From contig NW_026516778.1 of assembly GCF_025766255.1 (NCBI RefSeq), forward strand, positions 88,307 to 152,306: a stretch of DNA of 64,000 bases, written 5' to 3'. Below the pieces are notes generated by a model. That model was not told the origin of the DNA. It did no database searches and saw only the letters and a program-made list of their open reading frames with translations. Position 1 is the stretch's first letter, and the number at the start of each line of letters is the position of its first letter. The position numbers were made by a program, and so were the translations under genes. Below are positions 30,828 through 56,470 of this stretch, in pieces. This stretch comes from Zychaea mexicana. Taxonomy: Eukaryota; Mucoromycota; Mucoromycetes; Mucorales; Lichtheimiaceae.

Positions 30828-31540
30828 AGAAGGTTGCCTTGCCTTCGGGCGTATGTTGAATTAACCTCACTTGTTTTACGAAAATTTCGAGACATTTATC
30901 ATTTTATATGATAACTCGGTGTGGTTGGTTGGGCCCTCTCGCTCCTCCGACTGTAGCTTTCGGAAAGAATCCTTACTTGTCACGGGGTCCCGCTCCTCCG
31001 TGCGTATGCTGGTTCTTTCACTTAAATGTCAAACTGTCTGATTGTAGAATCTTTTGGCCTTGTAGAGACTGCTGCGTTGTCATTTATTAAAAAAGCTACG
31101 CAAGTGCTCGGGTGTCTTGTATGAGACAACCATTTTTAAGGCGTTGTGATCAGGTTGCCGACCTTCCTGGACGTGTTTTCGTTTTGTTTGAAAAGATGAT
31201 TTTTGGAATCAGTGTATACTGGAAGAACTGGATGTAGAGCATTTTGATTCTTGCTGCTAAAATCGAATCGTGCTCCATGCCTTGGCAACGTGGTACCCGT
31301 TAAGATAACCAATGTAGCTAAAAACCTTCTGGTGATGTTGTTGGCTCAGAATTGATATTGACGGCGTTTCGTACTTTGATGCCATTATATTCCAGAAGTG
31401 TTATCGGTGCGCTGGTTATGCCGAGCTCTTCTCCTGAGCTTTACAGACGTGTCGCATGCTGATGAATTCGTGGTGCAGCTTACTTAAAAAAAGAGCAAGT
31501 GATGCTCGAAGGTCGTTAATGCATTAATCAAGCCAAGGTT
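30828..31540. other. Unassigned repeat-like DNA
   Basis: No gene, RNA or clear repeat structure seen. Frames are short and interrupted on both strands. Confidence 0.35.
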
Positions 31541-31644
31541 CATATGCCCTTTATGAACCCTGTCATATCTGTTGACAGCATCCACCGGACAACTAAAAGA
31601 TATCTTAGCAACCGCACAAGCATGGATGATGGTTATTGCATTAT

Positions 31645-31905
31645 TTATGTACCTACATCAAATGTGTGGGAGAGGTGGCAATCTGCAAACAAAGCACCCG
31701 ACAATTTTGGGCTTATCTTAATAGAGCCGATTGTGCGAATCACATTGTGATGAATGCCTCCTTCCAAAGAATCCGTACCACGGCAGCATGGATACATGGT
31801 CAAAGCATCATTGTCCTTGCCCATAGTATACAAAAACGAAACGCCTGAGAGATCAAATACTTGACCATCAGAGTTGTCTTCAAGACGTTTTTTGACTGTT
31901 CCCAA
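31645..31905 (-). pseudogene. Relic of the exonuclease-transposon gene family
   Basis: The minus frame holds the segment ALTMYPCCRGTDSLEGGIHH and NVIRTIGSIKISPKLSGALF. It aligns with LTLYRCSRGTNSFEGGIHQN and LIRTIGAFGASVEYVDALLV in the larger copy at about 39,600-39,470 minus. The match is a C-terminal piece of the same gene, with stops on either side. It shows that the family has more than one copy in this segment. Confidence 0.65.
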
Positions 31906-33045
31906 GCCCCTTTGTCTAATAATGACCGATCACTTCTCGTGCGCTTCATGCGAAAACGCTTCCAGACCCATCTCTCGGGGTAGAATGTTATCTATAATAA
32001 ATCTATGTATACATAGTAGTTTAAGCCTAGGATCGTTATATATAAAGAGCAAAACTATACTGTACCTCGGCTTAATACGTCGAAAGATTCAGCTTAGGTC
32101 CCTCAAAAGAGTTTGGTCTCGTGCCGATTCTCGTCTGGCCAGAAAGCTTCAATCCGTACTTTGTCATGTTCAATAAAAACTAGTATGACATCGCACAGCT
32201 TCCTCAAGAACTTATTGGTAAGTTCATGGCGTCGCGGTACGTGGGACCATATGCATCAATTAATTTCCTTGATTGAATAGCGTTGTTGTTGCACTTGGCT
32301 TCATGCGGTATGCTTCCTAATATCTCTTCACCAAATGAATGGCCATCGTTATCTACGCAGGATATTTCGAATTCTTGTACATCTGTCGCTCACTAACCTC
32401 AACAAGCTGCTTTCAACGCCATACATTGATAAGGGTGCAGCACTTTGGCGATTACTTCTCCAATCAATACTTACTTTCGCTCATGCTATTCATACCTATG
32501 TCTTCTTCTTGACTATTCGATTCCTGTGATAAAGTACACAAACTGTGTTTTCGGCTTTCTTTATACTCTAATAAGTAAAAGTTTGAATCTCTTTTATCTA
32601 TTCACTAGGTAGTTAACACGTATACAGAATTACTCACTGTCAACGTCTATAATTGTAATGATACTTGCAACGTCAGAATTGTCAACAATCGTTTCAACTG
32701 CTTTACCTGTTTTGCAACTTACGTACAGTAATCTAATTGTAGTGTCGAGCGCAAAGAATCACCACGGGAAAGAATCCTCGCAATCTTCGCATGTGTAACG
32801 ACACACTTTCCAAATATGTGCAACGGAGTAGAATTTAATCCTACTGCGGATATGACGACGCGCGTTGCTTTCACTTATTTACACTTTACAACACTTTCAT
32901 CCCATCACTCTCACCACATTCTCACCTCCAATGAATTCCAGCGAACTCCAGCGAATCTATTCAAACCGGTCTTCTTCTCCACAATAATAGCCGCGGCAAC
33001 AACGTTTAAGTGAAGTGGAAGTCGCAGCATTCTTCTACTTACCGA
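31906..33045. other. Unassigned DNA between relics
   Basis: Probably degenerate repeat sequence. The part next to 31,905 may continue the relic. No frame is long or coherent enough to name. Confidence 0.3.
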
Positions 33046-34131: not shown

Positions 34132-35684
34132 ATGGATAACCAAGAAATAGATGAAAAGATTAATAATGAAGTTAACAAAATTATTGTTAATAAGTGGGAA
34201 TTTTTGGAATATAACTGGCCAATTGTTAATTATAATTACAAGCATCGTACAGAATTAAAACATATTAAAGGTATTGATGATATTAAAAAGATTTTAGTAG
34301 ATAAACTTGGTCATATAGCTGTTTTTTTCTTTTTGGTTGTTTTATATACTAGCTGTGAATATCCTGGCCCTTATTTTGAAGTTGAAAAAGGTTTATTTTT
34401 ATTATATCATTTAGTTTCTGGTGTTTCTGGTGTTGAAATTAATAAGTTTATCCCGCAAACATTATTTCACAAATACTATAAAAAGTTTTGGATAGATGAA
34501 GATAACTATAAAAGGTGAAATAAAATTGTTAATGATTCTATAGAGAATATGTTTTCTTCTTTAACTTTAAGAATTTTATCTTCTTATAATTATAATCCAC
34601 CACTTTTTAAACACATAACTTTTATAATAGATGGTCATGATTTAAGAATTAACTATGTTAAATACTGATATAAAACATGAAAGATTATGGTCATATAAAT
34701 TTAAAAAAAATGGAGTTCGTACACAAATTGTTAGCGATATTAACGATATGATTTTATATGCTTCCAAAAGCGATTATTGTTCTGATAGTTCTGACGGAAG
34801 TATGTTTTTGATCATGAAATTATATAAAAAAATATCTAAAGATGTATTGGCAACAGATAGTGGTTATACTTTATTTGTTAATCAGCTTATAGAACTTGGT
34901 GCGGAAAAAGGATATGATTTATCTTTTAACAATTTTGTTTATCCTATACGCAAAGAAAAGAATATAGATTTAATAGCAGAAGAAAGGCATTATAATGATG
35001 TTTTTGGTAGCTTTCGTTTAAAAATAGAAGACCAATTTGCTGCAATAGGTAATAAATTTTATAGATTTAATAATAATAAATCTATTGTTAAGATGGACAA
35101 CATAAAAGTTTTATAATCTTCAATTTCGTGTTGCTTATTTATTAAAAAATATAAAAATATTTAGTGAAAAGTTTAATATTAATACACAAGCACATCACAA
35201 ATTGTGGGAATCAGATAATTTTGAATTTTCACACGAAGCTAAATTAATAGATATAGTTATTAGCAATTCATCTGAGGCAAAAAACAAATTAGATGAAATG
35301 GTTAAATTACAGGAACAGTTTTTAAATAATTTAAGTATAGATAATACTAATATGATTATTGATAATGAATACAGTGATGAAAATGATAATGATAAAGATG
35401 TTTCCAGCGAAGAAGATGTACCTCAATTCAATGAGAAAAAAAGAAAAAGAAAAGGTAAAGGCAAAGGAACATTAATGGATATAAATAAAATTAGAAATAA
35501 TTCAACTTCTAATATTTCTTATGAAATAGAATCCATAATAAATCATAAATTTGAAAATGATTCCTATATATTCCTAATTAAATGGAAAGGTTATAATGAA
35601 CCCCAAAATAGCTGGATATGAATGAAAAATTTTAATGAAACCAATATGTTAAATAACTATATGAAAGTTAATAAATTAACTTAG
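34132..35684 (+). pseudogene. DDE transposase with C-terminal chromodomain, copy A
   Basis: The start MDNQEIDEKINNEVNKIIVN aligns with the intact protein of copy B. It continues with YKHRTELKHIKGIDDI and DKLGHIAVFFFLVVLY. After a TGA at 34516-34518 the frame goes on through SIENMFSSLTLRILSS and FIIDGHDLRINY (first catalytic Asp). A frameshift near 34657 leads to YKFKKNGVRTQIVSDIND and FGSFRLKIEDQFAAIGNKF (catalytic Glu). Another frameshift near 35110 leads to an acidic/Lys linker and a chromodomain, YEIESIINHKFENDSYIFLI to QNSWI. There a TGA (35619-35621) stands where copy B has Trp. So it is a dead copy with two stops and two frameshifts. Confidence 0.7.
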
Positions 35685-37463: not shown

Positions 37464-40416
37464 CATCGTGTTAATGTTTATTCCTCAAAAGCGAAATACC
37501 AAAAGCTTACTGACGAGCAAAACGACGCTTTATATCAACATTACATTGCTCAAGAGCAAAAAAATCACAAGTTTACTTATGGCCAATTGCTTGACTGGGC
37601 TAAAGGAAAATACAAGCTTGAAAATGGTCCCAACGAAACAACTATCTCGAGAATGATCATGAAAAGAAAGCGAGATGAAGAGAAGGGCGTTGACAGTAGT
37701 AAAAGACAAAAGTCGCGTGCAAAGTTTCCTGTAGGTCTAAATAATTAAATTCTTCTTCGCTATTCATATAATTAATAAAGAAACAAATAGGAATTGGAAT
37801 ATGCCCTCTATACATGGATAGAGCAAAGATTTTTTGAGAAGATCCCAGTCAATTGGGATATTATCAGAAAAGCTGGTGAAAATTTTGCAGCCAAACTGAG
37901 TATTCCGTCCAAGGAACTGACGTTCTCAAATGGTTGGCAAAATGGCACGGATAGCATGTATGAGGCAAAGAGAAATAATTTTTTTGTTTTTGGAAAGTTT
38001 TCAAAATGATACTGTAATAATATGAAAGTAGAGTTTATTGCTGTGTAAGAATACTATAAATGTTCATAGCGATATAGGATAACTGATGGTTTATATTGGT
38101 AGGCGATTAAATGCTGTTGTCTGGATTGCATTTTATTTTGTTATTTTTGTTGGTACAATCGATTTTACCACAGAAGCTACATTTCGCTGTGCATTTTGTC
38201 CTATTGTTTTTGCCTTTACATTTAATGTTGCCACAAACACTACATTTTTTTTGGTTCTTTTTACGAAGGCCATCAAGTATGCTGTTGCTGGTACCGTTGT
38301 TAATGCCACCACTACTGTTGCTACTTGTAGATGTTTGTGGCATCGTGGTAAAATTTGGGTTTGTTGAACTGGATGCAGGTGCTAAATATATTTACAATGT
38401 CAAAATATGCGGATACTTTGATCGACAAATTATTTTTCTTACTTAAAAATTGTAATGGCTGAAGTCTGACAGGAGGAAATTCATGTTGTGAATGATTTGA
38501 CGGTGTTGGAGGCATGGAAGGTAATTGCTGTAGAATATTTGCTAGTAATTGATGGAACATAAAGGTGGCTAGATTTTGCGTATCGATAAGTGCTGGAGCT
38601 GGACAAATTGTAACAGGAGAATCAAGGCGATTTGTAGATGACGAGGCACGTGAGGTATTATCGTTTTGGATTATGCTTTCAGTACGTGGTGTTTTTGATG
38701 GAGATGGGTGTTGTGCAGGTGGTGCTGTTCGTTTACGGGTCGTCGAGTTCAAATCGTTGCTCATGTTATCTATGGATTCTTTGTTGTTGTTTTTGGTGCA
38801 TATGATATTATCGATTTCTTTCCATTTTGTGTAAAGAACAGAAAGCTGCTCTGGTGTTTTATAGAATATATCTGTGCCGTTAACCTTTTGCGACCAAAGT
38901 TTGGTGAATCGAAGAAAGTCTGTGATTTTGAATCTATGGTTTGGGAACTGGTGACGAAGAATTGAATCGAATGTGCTTTTCTCCTTGTCTGTGTGAACTG
39001 GTATAATCGCGTGTACTGCTCTTTGACATTCGGCAATATACTTGTATTGAGCTCCAGTAACTTCTGCAGTTGAACGATTGATCATGATTAACGTGGCAAT
39101 ATCTAATGACGATGAATTGGTGTGTGAAGTGCTTTGGACTGGTGTTGCTTTGTCAATGTCGTACATTTCCGATAATGTTGGATCCAAGGGAGATATACCA
39201 AATAATTCGCCTGAAGACTTGAGGTTAAGAGAGTGTGTATGTATACCAGGCCCTCTGTAGCTGCATGGAAGGATAAGTTTTGTTTCCAAGTTATTGATAT
39301 GTTGTGATATCCACGGATCGTAATGACGGTCGTGAATACGTCCAAACCTATTTAATGTCCCAATCTACAACCAAACATACATGTCAATCCAAACTTTAAA
39401 TTTTCCGAATGTAAAATGAAATAATAAATTAAAAGCTATTACTCACATTGATGTTGTGCCTAAGTCTATAATCTACAAGTAGAGCATCAACATATTCAAC
39501 ACTGGCACCAAAAGCTCCAATCGTACGAATCAGGTTCTGGTGTATTCCACCTTCGAACGAATTTGTACCACGGCTACAGCGATATAGTGTAAGACCATCT
39601 TTATCTTGGCCACGGTCAAAATAAAGGGGATACCAGGTGGGTCAGATACGTGGCCCAGATGAATGGCAGTGAGCACATTTTTTGCTTGCTTCCAATTTTC
39701 AAAATCAAATAATAGTCGTCTGGTTCGAGCACAGCGCAATGGTCCATAAGTTTCAAACAGTTTTTTCACCACAGGGTAGAGATCTTTAGGAGGCGGCACA
39801 ACACCTAATATAATAATGAAACATTAGCGTTATGTTAGTGTACATATCTTGTTAATCCAGTGATTATACATTCAATTTGAAGGTTTAACTTACGCTTTAC
39901 TCTTTTGAATATCCAATCAGGATCTTCAGCAAGTTTTTTCTCCCATGTTGTTTCTTTCTTCTCCTCTAGGACCGCTGTTACCAGTCTTTTATCAATTTCA
40001 TCATATACAAACAATGCATCACGGAATGCCCTTGAGAAAACCTTGGATAATCTATGTTTGCGTGAGACCTTTATCATATCCATTAGATGAAAAACTTCTT
40101 TTAACAAATACGAGAGTGTATTGGAGCTGTTTGATTGATAGTGGCCGAGGTACTGCTGCTGCTTTGATTATCGTTTTGTTGTTGTTGTCGAAATAGTTGC
40201 TGGCCGTAGTCTCGGCTTGACACGTCAATATCTCGGTTGATTTCAAGCAAATTTCCTTCTTCATCAATGATTGGTAAACTTTCATTTTCTTGGTCCAAAT
40301 CAACATCTTCGTCATCCGATTCCATGGGTGGATTACTTGTGCCTTTATACAAAAAGTATAATATGTATTAGTAATGTATTAAACATGTATTGTTACAATC
40401 CGTTCATTATCTAATA

Positions 40417-43400
40417 TGGTGCAACCGATTTTAAATAGACAAAATTTTTAGATTTTTTTGGAATCTATCTAGTCAATGGGAACAAAAAAAATCAAAAAAC
40501 CAATTCACAAGTCTAATAGAGTGACATATGTAGTTTAAAACTTGTGTTTTAGATTCTTTTTAAAAGTTGATCTCGAGGAGCAGATAGCATTTGAAGTTGG
40601 GGACTTTTGGGGACTTTAAGCAGGGAAGGCTGAAATTTTGTTATATTTTCAAAGACCGTTAAGCCGTTTGTGTCACCTAAAATATCAGCAATGTTACACA
40701 AGCTTCATGGTATTCTGATATACATAGCTAATTATATTCATGATTGTTCCTTGTTCTTCCTCTGCCTTCTTTTGTATCATTTATCATGCCTAAACGTAAA
40801 GGAAAAGCTACTGCTGCCATGAAAAAGGCGCGCTTAAATGGAAAATTTGCTCCTGAGGTTAGATTATATATGCTGTACTACACATCATCATTTGCTGATT
40901 AGATATATTCATTATATGTAGAGTGTCGTTACTATCGTAGCTACAGTACCTGATGTACCTGAACCCGAAAGTGTCCCAGCTATGGCTGCAGAAAATACCA
41001 TCGAAGAGGTTAATCAGCTGGATGACGTGCAGTCATCCATTTTGACCTATAAAGAAGATGTCGACGATTAGATGCTGTGTGGCTTTTCAGAAGATGAACT
41101 GAAGGCAATTTTGTGGCGTAGTCTTCTCTCTTGGAAGCCCAACAGTGACAGCTATCTTAGAAGCTCGCATAGGAGAGGTGCATTGAGAGAAATACAAACC
41201 ATGATAGTTTAAATGCTGATTTAAGCAAAATTTGTATGTAGGCACTTCGGTTATGTCAGTCTGGCGAAAGGAAAAAGATGATAAGGAAACCAAAAAAATC
41301 GCAAAAACGTGTCATCGGATGACGGACTTCTACTCTCTTACTGCTACTACAACACCTTCAGTTGCTGGCGATAGCTCCGAATCCACACCGGATCCAACAA
41401 TCATTGCGGCGCCAACATTGTCAAAAAGTCAGCAAGAACTCGAGCTAATTGTCGAACATATGCCAGCTCTATCAAAAAAAATTAAGCGCGTCTCTAATTC
41501 CAAGTCGGAAATAGGTGGTTTGAAAGCCTATGAATCCCTTCGCTTATTAAGTATTTCCAAGTACTTTGAGTGCCGCCAAAATGGCATGAAGAAAGGTGAA
41601 GCATGCATGCAAGTAGCAACGACGCTTTGGCAAGGTGGCTCTATTTACCGCAGCCGTGCAATTGGCCATTGGACAAAGACGTATCTCGCTTTGAACGGTC
41701 ACTTACCATCGCACCGTCAAGGAAAGCATGCCAAGCGCAAATCATTTTTGAGCGACGAGGATGTGAAAAAAGCATGTATTGCTTTCTGGAAGAAGACTAA
41801 GCCAGAGCTGCGCTCAGCTGCTTTGTTGAAAAGTGAGCTGCAAAATCGAATAATTCCAGAAACGCTTGGAGTACAAGGATCTGTAGCTGAAGATACGATT
41901 TTGAACCATTTGCATGCATGGGGCTACAGATATAAGCGCTACACGAAAAATGTGAGTAGAAGGAATAGGCAGCAATGATGATGTATAATTACGTCAAATA
42001 TTGACTAATCCTTATAACCCCATAATAAGATTTACTATGACGGACATGAAAGACCTGACGTTGTAGCATACCGCATTGAATGGGCAAAAAGAATGTTGGA
42101 TTACCGAAAGCTGATGATTCAGTATACAGGTGATGATATGGAACAAGAGATCATGCCAGATCTAACAAACGGACGTCTCCGCCATGTCCTCGTCACTCAC
42201 GATGAATCCACCTTCTATTCAAATGATGCCAAGGCTGATATTTGGGTTGAAGAAGGGGATACGGTGCTGCGAAAAAAGGGTTTAGGAGGCTCGATCATGG
42301 TCAGCGATTTTCTTTGCGAGTGCCATGGTCCAATGCGCCTTGATCCTGGATTTGCCGAACAGCACAATATTCCATTTGAAGCCCGAGAATATTTCAAGGC
42401 CGGTAAAAATAACGAAGGATATTGGAAGAATGAGCATATGCTCGAACAGTTAACAAAAAAGGCATTGCCGATTTTCGAGGCACTCCACCCTAGTTGCATT
42501 GGTACGTCATACAGAAGGAAGTTATCTTCAAAATGACTTAAATGTATGCAATTGTTAGGTGTCTTCTGTTTTGACCAAAGCTCAAACCACAATGCCTATG
42601 CTGCAAACGCCTTGCGCCCAAGCCGGATGATCCTCAAGGACCAAAAGGTAGAAGACTTGAAGTACCCATTCAAAGCTCAAGGTTACACTTTGAATGAGAA
42701 TGGATCAGCAAAGCTCTACGACTTTTACTACGAGGACAAGCAGTATACAAGACGCCGTAACGGAGCCCGCTATAAGCAAAGATACTTCAAAGGGATTCAA
42801 ACGGTAAGATTAAACCATCACAATTTTTCATAAAGTGGGTAAGTACTCAGAACATATACTCTACAAAACATGATATTATAGATTTTGAAAGAAAGGGGCA
42901 AATGGCCTGAAGGTGGAGTACGTGCAAGTTGTGGCGCTGAATCAGCAACTAATGTTCAATGTTGTGCACGCCATATTCTTGCAAACGAGCCTGATTTTAA
43001 AAATCAGAAATCCGCTCTAGAGGAAGCTGTGAAAAAAAGACATCACAAGTTTGAGCTCTATCCAAAATTTCATTGCGAGACAAACTTCATAGAACGCTAT
43101 TGGGCCAGAGCAAAGCGTGAAGCACGTTTGCAGTGCGACTATTCTTATAGATCGCTTGAGCGACGTCTTCCAGGAATTCTAAATTCTGTTTCTTTGCCAA
43201 TGATCCGGCGCTTCGCTGCCAAATCATGGCTTTATATAGAGATTTATGCTGGAGGGAATGTTGATGGCTGCGAAGTAGATGAGCTTTACAAAAAAGCAAA
43301 AACTGTCTTCACCTCCCATCGTCGCCCTAGTTGCATGTAATAATTTCCTTTTATAGTAGCGGGATTTCAAATCAAAATTTTGTTATAAATTTTCATTTTT

Positions 43401-43424
43401 GTCTATTTAAAATCGGTTGCACCA
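40417..43424 (+). mobile_element. Tc1/mariner-type DDE transposon nested in an intron
   Basis: 3,008 bp with identical 28-bp inverted repeats (first 20 bases TGGTGCAACCGATTTTAAAT at both ends, then AGACAAAA) and a TA duplication (40415-40416 and 43425-43426). It lies opposite to the host gene. The host intron starts G|GTAA at the 43.4-kb side and the duplicated TA is intron positions 5-6, so the GTAATA donor survives; the acceptor is at about 40343. It encodes one multi-exon transposase. Confidence 0.88.
40786..43340 (+). pseudogene. DDE transposase of the nested element (one in-frame stop)
   Basis: Exons about 40786-40857, 40921-41179, 41242-41951, 42030-42501, 42559-42803, 42882-43340. The N-terminus is basic (MPKRKGKATAAMKKARLNGK). 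FSEDELKAIL and RRGTSVMSVWRKEKDDK precede a DNA-binding region with GEACMQVATTLW and HLHAWGYRYKRYTKN. Catalytic triad candidates: Asp in LVTHDESTFYSND, Asp in GVFCFDQSSNHNAY, Glu in FHCETNFIERYWARAKREAR. This is the DDE type with the FHCE-NFIE-W signature common in fungal repeats. A TAG at 41069-41071 interrupts the N-terminal region; everything else is open, so this is a recently active copy or an almost intact one. An exon boundary that skips the TAG is possible. Confidence 0.75.
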
Positions 43425-46400
43425 TATTACCATCTTCTAAATATGTCTGTTGGTTAATCAATTGTTGAGTCGGTGTAGATATAGCTGAAGTAGCTGGTGA
43501 TATGGTTGTTGCAGATGGTGTTTCTTGTACTGAAACAGTCTTGTAAGTACGAAGCTCAGAACCTTGACAACTATTTCGAACGGAGGACTCGCAAAATCTC
43601 GAAGGCACTTGTCATGTGCATTCACCATGGCACCGGGCACCAAAGTTCTTTTGATAGTAATGATAACGCGGCCTTTTTTAACTAACTCCATCTAGTCTTT
43701 TTTGTTGCTTGGAAATTACACCATATGCGACAGGCTCGTTGAACGACCCAGGATGATACGGTACAGGATTACCTAAAAAATATATACAAGCTTTAGTTCC
43801 AGCGTTATAAAACTGCTGTTGAATTTCATCTATCCAGTACATTACCCTCATTGTCAGGACTAGGATTAGATATACGTATACCGATTACACCATGCCTCTT
43901 GACTTCTTCAAAAATTTTTAAAGATGCCCATGCATCGAGAGGGGCATAATCAATTTGGTCTTGTGTCAGTTGCGTTGCATCCCAATTACTCAGTCGAATA
44001 GAGTCGTCTTTGTTCAATGTATGTTCCAATACAGCTTCACAAATTCCAGTAAGTCCTATACGTCCATCGGTAATTGCACCTTGACCTTTGCAAAACGCAC
44101 CTAATTCGAACCCTCCTTCGCAAACAACCTTGAAATCACGTTCGATTTTTTTCAAATCACCATTGACATTTCGCCCAAGTTTCATAATCGATTCGCTCTC
44201 TAACAACTTGCATAACGAACTCGGTAATTCGTCTAGGTCAGACACACACATTATAAGTGCCCAGTCGTTGTCTGAAATCTGGATTGTTGCTACCTTTCCT
44301 TGTTGGCGGGTCGTAGTGTTGAATGTCCATTCGCAATCAAATCCAATAGCTTGTGAGCTGCCTTTGTTGATGATGCTATTGGCACTAGTTTCGATATCTT
44401 GAGCACCACGTATAGCCTTGATTTCAACGTTGCTTGGAATAGTAAGCAGTGGGTAGGAACGAGCATTTAACGGCCCCTCGTTTTCTTGTTCAACAACGGG
44501 TACCACGTCTTGCAAAAGTGATGGTATAGCTTCTTTAAGAAAACTTTGATCCCCAGTTACGTTGTCCGTAAAAAATACTTGTGGCTGTGTGTATCCGTAC
44601 AAATCATATGCATGTCGCATGGCGTCAAATGCATATTTGAGATTGGATAATGCTTTTGTTGGAACAAGAAACTGAAGTCGGACTTCTTCATATTCGTTCA
44701 GGACCGTATATAAAGCGGCAAATACTGGTCGACCGTTAATCTTGTTTATCAGCTTGATTATCTTAAAGGTATGGTCATCTTTAAGATACACTCTGTCAAG
44801 CACTTCCATTTCCTTGTCGATGAGATGTCGTATTTCTCGAATAAACGCAGTATAAAATGAACGAAAATATTGAGGGGATGGAACGTGACCGGCATACTTG
44901 GATCGATCGTCAAATGAAGAGAATGGTGTTATAGTCTCTTGCTTATCAAACATATCATGAATTGACTGTTGATCAAAGCGCCGATATACGATATACTGAA
45001 TATATTGTAAATGTAGCCATGCGTGTTTTAATCGATGTACTTCACGAATTATCTTGCGGAATCGCTTCGAGCCAACTGAATTTTGTACACATGGTCTATA
45101 GAGGTCACCAACAACTTTTGATAACCCACTTCGATGAGTCATGTATCCAGGGTACTCGCATTGCAAGATTTCTGGTAGTTGACGGATTATTTCTGGGTCG
45201 TTACAGATATAACTCTTTTTGCAACTTGGTATGTGGCACTGGTAACGATACCCCATAATATAAAAGCAGCTAAACATTTTAACTTAGGACAGAACTCTTT
45301 GATAACTAAGCATATCACATATATGGTGCCAAAATAATCGCTATTCAATCATTACCTATCAATGTCTATTACTCTGCGCGCAAAAGTAGTCTTTGTATAA
45401 CCATTGTTTCTGAGAGTTACTTTGCAACCTAGGCACTTTAGTTTTTCTTAAAAAACTTTTGGAGCAGAAGATGAGGGAACCATAGAAACACATGTGGAAG
45501 ATACACGCTGCTTGGATCGATTCCATCCATCAATGCAAAGAAAGGAGATTTTGGGTGAACCCAAAATGTGCCGTTGTGATATTCGTGAGGCATATTATCC
45601 TGTTTATCGTTTTTCATGTCATCTCGTATGCCGATCTTAAAGGCCAAAAAAATACTTTTCAAGTATACTGTCTTGATCTTCGCCTTCACGTTCGTCTTTC
45701 TCTGGAATCGGTGTATCTGCCTCTTCAGTCTCATCATCATCATCATCTCCAGTAGTGTCGATGTTGTTGCTTGTATTCGAGTCAACTTCTAGTAGCCCAC
45801 GAATACTTGCTAATTCTTCGACTTCAGCTGGTTCTTCCAAAGGCGTTCTAGGTAGCTCGGCAGACGTGCGTTCGTCGTTGCTGTTGCTGGTGTCGTCCCT
45901 GAAATCACTTGTTGCTGAATCAGTGAAATCTTGTGCGAAACAAAGCACAGATTGCCCTTGAGGTAAAGATTGCGAGTTTTTGGGTTTTCTTCCGGCATTA
46001 GGATTTTTTCCTCCTTTCTTTCTTCCAGGTTTTTTAAAATTGAACATTTTGACACTGTTGACACGGCCTTTGACAGTAGTAGTATTAGAAGAGATGAAGC
46101 ACTCTCGCCATGCACATGCAGATAGTTTATTTAAATCCCAGCAACAGTGTCATAGTCAAAATTTATTGGCCAGCCCAAAACGTCATGGTTGATTTTTATT
46201 GGACAGTGCTGCCTCATCCACACTACCCGTGCCGGCAAAATCGCTTCCTAAACCGCTACAAGTTGAAGGTGCAAACAATCAGTGGTAAAGCAAGCTCTGC
46301 TAATGTCACACTAGCAGAAGCTCAGCTGCCGGAAATCCAGGAAGTCTTGAGAAAATATCCCCCAAGAGACATCTACAATATGGATGAGACTGCAGTACTC

Positions 46401-47829
46401 TACGCAAGTGCCCCCGTGACTACCATTGCACCTAGGTCATTCAAAGGATTCAAACAGGATAAATCGCGGTTGACATTAGCCCTCACAGTGAATGCTGATG
46501 GTTCTGATAAGTGGTATCCTTGGTTCATTGGCAAGGCAAAGCGGCCAAATTGTTTTGATCAAGTATGTGATACTTCTTCAAGGTCAAATTGATGACTTAC
46601 TCACAATTGTCTTTTACGCAATGATAGGCCCAAAGAAAGAAAACCGATATCTCCAAGTACTGTGGAAATGCCAATGCTTAGATGACCCGTGAGATTTTTA
46701 AGAAATATCTCACAATGTTAGACGATTCTATGGTCTATCAAAAGCGAAAGATTGCTTTGCTGCTTGACAACTTTTCCGGTCACTACTGTGATTACGTCCC
46801 GAAGAACATCGAGCTGGTGTATTTGCCGCCAAATACAACTTCATTAATGCAACCTTTGGATGCCGGCATTATTCGCAGCTTTAAAGTACATTTCAAGTAT
46901 GTTTTGTGATGATTAGTGATCTACTTCCATGCATTGTAGATGGAAATACTAAGGCTATTATTTCTGTTATTGTAATAGGAATCTGCAATATGAGCATGCA
47001 TATAACAGCATTCAAGAGCGTCTGGAGAAAGACCTACCTGCTAATAATGGCAACACGTTCCATGTTAAAGTTTTGATCGGAATTGCATGGTGCCATCAAG
47101 CTTGGAAAAAAGTCTCCGAATCTACCATTAGGAACTGTTACCAAAAAAAACAGGGGTAGTAGAGAAAATGATTGATGACAATGTCAACAGTGCATCAGAT
47201 AATGCAGATGAGGTAGCTCTTGGTCAGATTGACAATCACTTGAACCTCATTTATGGCATTGAAAATCTGGAAAGCTTTACTTTTGATGCAGATCCACCTG
47301 AGTAAATTGCAGCTGTCCATCCACTACTTTCCGATGAAAAAATTGTTCAATCTGTGCTCCAAGAAGAGATAAAAGCAGGTGATATGTTGCTAATAATGAT
47401 CGTGATGATGGGGACCAAGGTGCTCACTCTGGATCGGTATACTTCCAGCATATACTATGCGGAAAAAAATCAGAACTCTAGAAAAAACTATCAGTATTCT
47501 AGATGCCCCAGAACACCAAAGAGTCCGAGACGAACTCAGAAAGATTCGAGATGATATAAGAAAGCAAAGCCAGACCATACAATCTTCAATTACCGCGTAT
47601 CTTTAGCTGTAAAAAGTTTGTGTAATAAAAATTATCTCTTTATGGAAATAAGATAGATGTCACTGGTTCGAGACTCTGTATCCCAGGCTCCCGAGTCAAT
47701 AGCGGAAAATTGCAGGACCCCATTTTTGGCCTGCAAAATCCAAAAAGTGAGGAAACTGCAATTTTATTAAGTGATGAGTGGGTTTGCTCCAAAAAATTTG
47801 TAAAAACTGAGGATCTGTAAAAAGCGGGG

Positions 47830-53686: not shown

Positions 53687-54217
53687 AAGGTGTTTGTCCA
53701 CATCAAATTTGTTTATTTCAAATTAATTATCTTTATTTTTTTATAATGTTTAATTTGATCATATGACCATTAAATAATATATTAGAATATATAATAATTA
53801 AAAGCAAAAATAAAAAAATGTAGATGAAAAAACATCTACAACTTTTTTATTTTTATTTCTATCACATGACCAGAAATAGATAACTCTTTTAAAATACTAA
53901 ATTAAAATTTAGAAATCAATAAATTATAAGTTATAAAATATCAGTAATAATACTAGAAACTAATATATCAATTTATTAATAAGAATTATGTAAAAGGATA
54001 TCTAGAAGTTAGATCAAGTAAATAATGGAAAGGTCATGTGATAGAAATAAAAAATAAAAAAGTTGTAGATGTTTTTTCATCTTCATTTTTTAATTTTTGC
54101 TTTTAATTATTATATATTCTAATATATTATTTAATGGTTATATGATCAAATTAAACATTATAAAAAAATAAAAATAATTAATTTCAAATAAACAAATTTG
54201 ATGTGGACAAACACCTT
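53687..54217. repeat. Foldback (long inverted repeat) element
   Basis: Two arms of about 185 bp, 53687-53872 and 54032-54217, are nearly perfect reverse complements, starting AAGGTGTTTGTCCACATC and ending GATGTGGACAAACACCTT. The spacer is about 160 bp. It is extremely AT-rich and non-coding. It lies between the cut host gene and element B. Confidence 0.8.
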
Positions 54218-54277: not shown

Positions 54278-54571
54278 GGAGGTCTTTTATAAACATTAAC
54301 TATAATTAAAAACAGTAATATATGAAAATGTAAATAGTTTGATTAAAACTAACAATTTTTAATTTTCTAATATATATTTAAACATCTAATTGGTTAAACT
54401 TTTAAGGTAATTATCAATGATGGTTGTATCATTAAAGTTTTCCTGCCATATCCATTCATTATAAGAATCATCATAATCTCTCCATTTAACTAAAAATTTC
54501 ATTCTTTTTTTAAATTTTCTATGATTCAAAATTTTTTCAACTTCAAAACTATCCTCATCAATATCATTATC
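54278..54571. repeat. Left arm of 294-bp inverted repeat, copy B
   Basis: Reverse complement of 56178-56470 with one 1-base indel and about one mismatch. It starts GGAGGTCTTTTATAAAC. Read backwards it encodes the last 62 residues of the transposase, that is the chromodomain, so the element holds two inverted copies of its chromodomain end. Confidence 0.88.
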
Positions 54572-54603
54572 AAAAAAAAAATTGAATTCTGAATAATATT
54601 AAA

Positions 54604-56363
54604 ATGGATCATATAATTAGAAATGAATTATCAAAACTAAATAATAATTATTGGCAATTTCTAGACATAGATTATCCCATAAAGATTTCCAAGTATAAAC
54701 ATAGAACAGCAATAAAAAACATTAATAATATTGATAAAGTAAAAGAAATATTAATTAAAAAGTTAGGTTATATACCAGTATTTTTCTTTCTAGTTATGAT
54801 TTTTAATAAATATGATTATAAAGGTCCATATAATTTTTTAGAAAAAGGTTTAATTATTTTGTACCATTTAATTACTGGTAATTCTTATAGTGATATGGAT
54901 GATTACATTCCTAGTTCTTCATTTTCAGATATACATAATCAATTTTGGAAGGATAACAGAAATGATTTAAATAAATATATTACTGAACTATTAGAAAATA
55001 TGTTTTCAAACACAATATTAAGAATTTTAACATCTAAAAATATAAATCCAACAGGCTTTAAAAACTTAACTTTATTTATACAGTGCCCGCTCGATAATTC
55101 GATCACTTTGGTCACAGCCACAAGTGATCGAATTATCGAAATATCGAGTTATGAAATTGGGACTCCGTCAAGAAAAGGAATATTTATTGGGAATACATGT
55201 TAACTCTAGACTCTGATGTATGATCCGACACTGATCGCTGGTTCAATTCCGCGTCACTAAGCATTTCTATTGGTTTATACTTATCGATATGTCACAGCCA
55301 AGCGATCGATGATCGAATTATCGATTTGTCGATATTTTACTGCTTACCAGCCTGGTCATTTGAGAAAGTGATCGAATTATCGAAAATATCGAGTTATCGA
55401 GTATCGAATTATCGAGCGGCCACTGTAGATGGCCATGACAGTAGAATCGACTATTTAAAAAATGATATAAAATCTAGAAATTTTTACTCATATAAATTTA
55501 AAAAATCAGGTATTAGGACACAGGTAGTTTATGATATTAATGAATTTGCAATATTTGTATCAGATAGTAAGCCATGTAAGAATTATAATGACGGTCAAAT
55601 GTTTTTAGATATGAAATTGGAGAATAAATTAAGTGATTATGAATGTATTGCATTTGATGGTGGATATTATTATTATATAGAAAAATTTATAGAGAACTGT
55701 GAAAGAAAAGGTAATGATAAAATAAACAGAAATAATTTTATGTACCTAATTAGAAAAGAAATTAATATAGATTTAACTGATGATGAAATTCTGTATAATG
55801 AAACGTTTGGTAGTTTTAGAAGTAAAATTGAATCATGTTTTGGTCAATTAGGAAATAAATTTAAAAGATTTAATAATAATGAAAAAACTACTAGAATTAC
55901 AGACATAAAAGTATATAATTTACAGTTAAAATTAGCATTACTATTATTAAATATTCAAAAATTTTGCAATGTACATAATATTCCTGTTAAGCCTAATCAT
56001 ATGCTGTGGGCAAACAATAATTTTAATTATCCTAATCCAAATAATAGTACTGAAAATATTATTGAAAAATTTGATTTAATAAGAATAACGGAAATGACAA
56101 ATAAACAAGAATCTTTAATTAATAATTATTGCAATACTAATTTAGAAAATATAGATGATAATATGTATATAGAAGAAGATAATGATATTGATGAGGATAG
56201 TTTTGAAGTTGAAAAAATTTTGAATCATAGAAAATTTAAAAAAAGAATGAAATTTATAGTTAAATGGAGAGATTATGATGATTCTTATAATGAATGGATA
56301 TGGCAGGAAAACTTTAATGATACAACCATCATTGATAATTACCTTAAAAGTTTAACCAATTAG
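54604..56363 (+). CDS. DDE transposase with C-terminal chromodomain, copy B (interrupted by a MITE)
   Basis: 54604-55080 and 55428-56363 read as one 470-residue frame when the MITE and one TA are left out. The N-terminal helical region has KYKHRTAIKNINNID and LEKGLIILYHLITGNSYSD (helix-turn-helix-like). The catalytic core has the first Asp in FIDGHDSRI (residue 160), a second Asp in AFDGGYYYYIEK, and Glu in GSFRSKIESCFGQLGNKFKR. That order suits IS5/PIF-Harbinger (DDE_4) transposases. A linker with acidic runs leads to the chromodomain, SFEVEKILNHRKFKKRMKFI and YNEWIW. Chromodomains bind methylated histone tails in other proteins and guide some retrotransposons to heterochromatin. Apart from the MITE I see no stop or frameshift. 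No accessory Cys-rich gene is present in this copy. Confidence 0.8.
55081..55425. mobile_element. 345-bp pogo-type MITE inside the copy B transposase
   Basis: The ends are CAGTGCCCGCTCGATAATTC and (complement) CAGTGGCCGCTCGATAATTC, with repeated TATCGA/TCGAATTATCG words inside. TA is duplicated at 55079-55080 and 55426-55427. No coding capacity. The CAGTG start and TA target suggest mobilisation by a pogo/Tigger transposase. Confidence 0.85.
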
Positions 56364-56470
56364 ATGTTTAAATATATATTAGAAAATTAAAATTGTTAGT
56401 TTTAATCAAACTATTTACATTTTCATATATTACTGTTTTTAATTATAGTTAATGTTTATAAAAGACCTCC
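56178..56470. repeat. Right arm of the 294-bp inverted repeat, copy B
   Basis: Partner of 54278-54571. It spans the last 62 codons of the transposase (56178-56363) and about 107 bp of 3' flank ending GACCTCC. Confidence 0.88.

Follow-up and report, generated by a model that had tools for sequence, protein, structure and literature searches.

A Zychaea mexicana DNA transposon encodes a predicted DDE transposase with a DEDDy 3′-5′ exonuclease inserted in its core

We analysed a stretch of 64,000 nt from Zychaea mexicana (Mucorales, Lichtheimiaceae; assembly GCF_025766255.1, 305 contigs, 50.3 Mb in total), covering positions 88,307 to 152,306 of the forward strand of contig NW_026516778.1 and referred to here as the window. 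The element at 37944-46233 of the window is a DNA transposon encoding a predicted IS256/MULE-like DDE transposase, in which a WRN-type DEDDy exonuclease domain is inserted between the presumed second catalytic aspartate (D2) and the DxxH motif. We consider it probable that the transposase cuts and joins the ends of the element, with the exonuclease presumably trimming 3′ ends left exposed.

The element is bounded by 24-bp terminal inverted repeats (TIRs), GGCACGGATAGCATGTATGAGGCA on the left (37944-37967) and, as reverse complement, GGCACGGGTAGTGTGGATGAGGCA on the right (46210-46233), which agree at 20 of 24 positions, and the exact 8-bp target-site duplication (TSD) GGCAAAAT lies outside them at 37936-37943 and 46234-46241. 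When all equal 8-mers spaced 1-12 kb apart in the window were scanned for TIRs, with 20 first-order random sequences for comparison, this pair gave 20/24, as against 17/24 for the best pair among the random sequences. Four other pairs in the window reached at least 16/24, three perfect ones that belong to another element with inverted repeats (54.3-56.5 kb) and a fourth that matches at 16/24. The target was a pogo-like transposase gene (PF03184, E=0.0016, 18.5 bits, under the cut-off of 22), which the element splits into 37480-37943 and 46242-47200. A 337-bp query, made by joining the flanks of the element with a single TSD copy, matched at full length and 96-98% identity at six other loci (C263, C72, C11, C143, C256 and C237), and split into two pieces at the window locus. 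These six loci are uninterrupted copies of the pogo-like gene showing the empty site, and the insertion was therefore precise. Twelve further matches to the pogo-like gene, at 76-78%, were found elsewhere in the genome. The TIRs, the 8-bp duplication and the insertion inside a gene of another transposon had all been proposed in a preliminary description of this DNA, and each is borne out here.

The main 483-aa exon of the gene matches 112 stretches in the Z. mexicana genome, which are pieces and not copies. Both ends were located for 13 copies, all in this genome, and they fall into three subfamilies (A, A2 and B) that carry the same gene and differ in TIR sequence, with every TIR starting GGC. 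Exact TSDs were present at 9 of the 13, each exactly 8 bp long, a tenth copy had a 6/8 match, and exact duplications of 6 or 7 bp were seen at none of the 13. The preliminary description had raised the question of whether such ends recur; within this genome the GGC TIRs do so in all three subfamilies and the exact 8-bp TSDs at most copies, but three of the 13 have no TSD. Subfamily A, with the window copy and C241, has the TSDs GGCAAAAT and GAAATTTT. Subfamily A2 is 5.2 kb long, with four copies 97.6-98.8% identical, TIRs GGCGGGAGTAAAGTAGCCGGACCT and GGCATGGGTAACATGTCCGGACCT, the exact TSDs GTTTTTTT, CCATTTGG and AAGAAGTG, and the 6/8 match at the C240 copy. A further 5.19-kb A2 copy with both ends lies at C291:12.2-17.4 kb (L078/L079) and shows about 98% identity in the 2.2 kb that were aligned for comparison. 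Subfamily B, 5.04 kb long, has the TIRs GGCTCGGTGGCCATATCCGTAGTGA and GGCAGTCGGGCGGTACCCGTAGTGA and the exact TSDs CATACTGG, CCTATATT, AGAAGCCT and AAAATTTT; a 2.09-kb internally deleted derivative of it (L073, C277:14600-16860) keeps 0.7 kb and 1.0 kb of the ends. The C190 and C242 copies do not differ at any of 5040 bp, the final base being a shared TSD letter, although their flanks are unrelated, which shows recent movement of family members. Insertion targets were varied and A/T-leaning. No tRNA was found at any of 10 joined insertion sites. Comparison with Rfam gave five weak matches in 16 flanking loci, all below the gathering score, and none reaching that score there or at the window site.

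The order of motifs in the encoded protein was determined from an alignment of 148 sequences, comprising 147 of 157 relatives (those of at least 450 aa) and one sequence from this genome. It runs from GDH[ST]FK with the first presumed catalytic aspartate (D1), through 70 residues, to TDNV (D2), the exonuclease, DxxH, a spacing of 151-155 residues and RGTNSxEGG with the presumed catalytic glutamate (E). Counting in each alignment column the sequences that have a residue there, D1 was present in 134/138, D2 in 135/137 and E in 96/100, and the Asp and His of DxxH, which reads ExxH in the window copy, in 106/111 and 109/111. The exonuclease residues D, E, D, Y and D were present in 129/139, 128/138, 125/132, 128/133 and 124/133, respectively, so that conservation of the exonuclease site falls just short of that of the transposase site. 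Among the 103 sequences in which both D2 and DxxH are aligned, 97 have at least 100 residues in the exonuclease span. An N-terminal CCCC finger is also present, with its third Cys in 116/117 and its fourth in 93/106, and its first Cys pair visible by eye both in the alignment and at 45424-45441 of the window.

Structure prediction indicated that the part of the protein outside the exonuclease folds as a DDE transposase, the closest solved fold being that of ISCth4 of the IS256 family. In this predicted fold the exonuclease separates strands 4 and 5 of the RNase H core and DxxH is followed by an insertion made up entirely of helices; ISCth4 likewise combines an RNase H fold with a helical insertion. 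According to the available sections of PMC7780238, the two also share the D-D-E order with C/DxxH and 8-bp, A/T-rich TSDs, whereas ISCth4 is bacterial, its solved protein has no exonuclease, and it moves by copy-out/paste-in. Of nine members compared with the Pfam MULE profile PF10551, two gave weak matches, the best with E 0.0013, with P0041 at 16.5 bits against a cut-off of 27.6. The preliminary description had spoken of a fusion of a transposase-like core to an exonuclease; both are indeed in one protein, but the exonuclease is inserted within the core and not joined to it end to end.

Several observations speak against the reading given above. The Foldseek superposition of the whole protein on ISCth4 was poor (TM 0.40, 16 Å). 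The exonuclease decays somewhat more often than the DDE set, the full five-residue set being intact in 106 of the 124 sequences with all five columns filled, whereas 84 of 89 retain all three DDE residues. Of the 103 sequences above, three from Apophysomyces have practically no exonuclease and in three others it is shortened to 94-99 residues, and the unequal spacings in the former (50, 11 and 37 residues) suggest gene-model artefacts. Among recent A2 copies the pairwise ratios of nonsynonymous to synonymous substitution rates were all below 1 for the whole gene (0.19, 0.54 and 0.36); for the exonuclease part they were 0.62, 2.77 and 0.36, but these values are based on so few changes that they are uninformative about recent selection on the exonuclease. 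As for the ends, the copies without TSD are the A2 copy on C291 (3/8 match), a B copy on C101 (2/8; 91% identity across the first 200 bp) and the 2.09-kb B derivative (3/8), and an automated scan of six older copies with flanks of about 2.3 kb gave no TIR and TSD pair.

The gene is likely to be the engine of the element and not a passenger, since a DDE transposase fold is predicted for what it encodes outside the exonuclease, and the protein would then mobilise its own ends. The preliminary description had named the gene as cargo and probable engine, which is supported by its presence in three subfamilies with differing TIRs and by the predicted DDE core. That it is instead a captured host exonuclease, carried passively and moved by another transposase, is highly improbable given these same subfamilies and the joining of the exonuclease and the predicted core in a single polypeptide; the deleted B derivative, which shares the ends, does indicate that ends may move in trans, a movement that could equally use this protein. 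In the mechanism that we favour, the transposase would bind the GGC-tipped ends and free their 3′ ends. Their joining to staggered positions 8 bp apart in the target would give the 8-bp duplication; the stagger is suggested by the TSDs and by the likeness to ISCth4. The exonuclease, held in the core, would act inside the transposition complex, removing leftover flanking bases from the exposed 3′ ends or tidying the donor break. It might instead work away from the transposon 3′ ends, on a broken donor site, on competing DNA or in host repair, which we regard as possible but less likely than not. WRN-type exonucleases have repair roles, and a predicted beta-rich region next to the domain (490-565) together with a disordered linker (575-651) might allow it to swing away from the core. 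That the domain lies inside the catalytic core, and that nearly all relatives keep it, is however consistent with a role within the complex. Eukaryotic MULE and hAT relatives excise, which counts against copy-out/paste-in through a circle replacing cut-and-paste here. Such a route is unlikely in our view; it is suggested by the nearest solved fold, ISCth4, being that of a copy-out/paste-in enzyme (PMC7780238), but likeness of fold does not settle the pathway.

Much of this arrangement has a precedent in Dada, for which our statements follow the available sections of Kojima & Jurka (2013; PMC3706591). There, a DEDDy 3′-5′ exonuclease is placed between D2 and DxxH in Dada of Laccaria bicolor and Ectocarpus, the same D-D-[DEDDy exonuclease]-DxxH-E order as here, and the processing of 3′ ends by the exonuclease, the role that it would have in our element, is put forward as a suggestion. 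Because both domain order and role were published in 2013, the element is much less new than first thought. The two have in common the DDE site with DxxH, the position of the exonuclease and an N-terminal CCCC finger, and D1 and D2 are 70 residues apart here as compared to 68 in Dada-U6_DR, whose catalytic residues are D567, D635 and E811. The finger is spaced Cx2C...Cx4C in the window and Cx4C...Cx2C in Dada-U6_DR, and C-terminal Cys knuckles are found here as well, as C-x2-C-x4-C-x8-C units without the His of the CCHC zinc finger of Dada. Dada is described with mostly small-RNA targets, and its families with clearly definable termini, all in small RNA genes (snRNA or tRNA), have no TIRs and TSDs of 6-7 bp, whereas the elements studied here have 24-bp TIRs starting GGC, 8-bp TSDs and varied A/T-leaning targets, with no small-RNA gene found at the tested sites. 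Because of these differences from the published descriptions, we call the element Dada-like without assigning it to canonical Dada. None of the relatives found by protein searches is named Dada.

The chance is somewhat below even that this is an ordinary transposon of the Dada superfamily, in a branch for which TIRs and 8-bp TSDs are normal and where termini have never been defined for fungal members. The shared domain order, the near-equal D-D spacing and the common CCCC finger favour this, and so does the fact that definable Dada termini all come from small RNA genes, with fungal termini not shown in the available sections of PMC3706591 or of a 2022 paper. The published TSD lengths, lack of TIRs and target preference argue the other way, as do the joined sites, flanking loci and window site free of tRNA and of Rfam gathering-score matches. 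More tentatively, the lineage may stand apart from canonical Dada as an obligate two-nuclease transposase, in which a DEDDy exonuclease placed between two strands (4 and 5) of the RNase H core would work beside the DDE site in the complex; TIRs and 8-bp TSDs would come with it, and targets would be chosen freely instead of among small-RNA genes. What is new is a set of termini for an exonuclease-bearing lineage, with TIRs, 8-bp TSDs at nine of 13 copies and no small-RNA gene found at the tested sites. This suggests that small-RNA targeting and the lack of TIRs do not extend to all Dada-like elements with an exonuclease.

Other known systems are less close. KolobokD, in the available sections of PMC9587614, is likewise a DNA transposon of a C/DxxH superfamily encoding a DEDD-family 3′-5′ exonuclease, but that exonuclease is DEDDh/TREX-like and Kolobok TSDs are 4-bp TTAA. 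KDZ/Zisupton is similar by description in its 8-bp TSD (Zisupton) and its occurrence in fungi, but the word "exonuclease" is absent from the main text of PMC12730594. An 8-bp TSD is also a feature of hAT.

Relatives of the protein were found in Mucoromycota (Phascolomyces, Circinella, Fennellomyces, Mucor, Parasitella, Apophysomyces and Blakeslea), in many Agaricomycetes (Mycena, Lyophyllum, Ephemerocybe, Agaricus and Psilocybe among them), and in Phenoliferia, Mrakia and metagenomes. Most are hypothetical or uncharacterized in NCBI. Those with a name are mostly called "3′-5′ exonuclease", in keeping with the host-exonuclease annotation that the preliminary description had said was usual, one is "Werner syndrome ATP-dependent helicase-like", and two are "essential for the formation of DNA replication focal centers". 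Many fungal proteins that carry these labels, or no name at all, would be recast as transposases. The family also makes it testable why a transposase keeps a proofreading-type exonuclease, being multicopy, recently mobile in a Mucorales genome and provided with defined ends.

The gene of the window copy lies on the minus strand and is broken. Its N-terminal exon (MFNFKKPGRKK...) is at 45637-46047, followed by a DUF6729-type Cys region spread over frames at 45221-45578 (FW motif 45522-45578, CxxC 45424-45441, Cx4C 45221-45238), for which the match was weak (22.6 bits, cut-off 27). The 483-aa exon (43826-45277) contains the second half of the zinc finger, the RNase H-fold strands with DDHTFK (44762-44779; presumed D1, the Asp preceding His) and TDNVTGD (44549-44569; presumed D2), and the exonuclease domain at 43901-44392 (PF01612, E=1.7e-18, residues 296-459 of this open reading frame (ORF); motifs at 44327-44347, 44156-44176 and 43925-43948). 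The DxxH position, placed by comparison with the alignment, reads EVFH (40075-40098), and the motif with the presumed catalytic Glu, RGTNSFEGGIHQ, is at 39537-39572, in a different frame from the rest of the matched stretch, so that a frameshift near it is likely. The C-terminal open frame (38321-39289) matches residues 1010-1140 of P0064, the Z. mexicana family protein used as tblastn reference, at 38699-39112, and two C-x2-C-x4-C-x8-C knuckles follow at 38128-38244. A younger Tc1/mariner-like element of 3.0 kb, not part of the exonuclease element, is nested on the plus strand at 40414-43427, with perfect 31-bp TIRs and, outside them, a duplicated TA (40412-40413 and 43428-43429); its transposase-like gene had no Pfam match above cut-off. 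The nested insertion and the likely frameshift break the gene, and the window copy is therefore dead. The element is as the preliminary description claimed, but the nested TA-flanked element and the broken gene had been overlooked.

At 30909-31967 (minus strand) lie the decayed remains of another relative of this transposase, with 48% identity to residues 917-989 of P0064. Elsewhere in the window, the element at 54278-56470 has two ORFs, of which the second ends in what we take to be a chromodomain-like stretch, and its inverted repeats, about 290 bp long, are near-perfect; similar ORFs occur at 34132-35621. A 168-nt inverted repeat, 97% complementary and with arms 195 nt apart, is located at 53687-54217.

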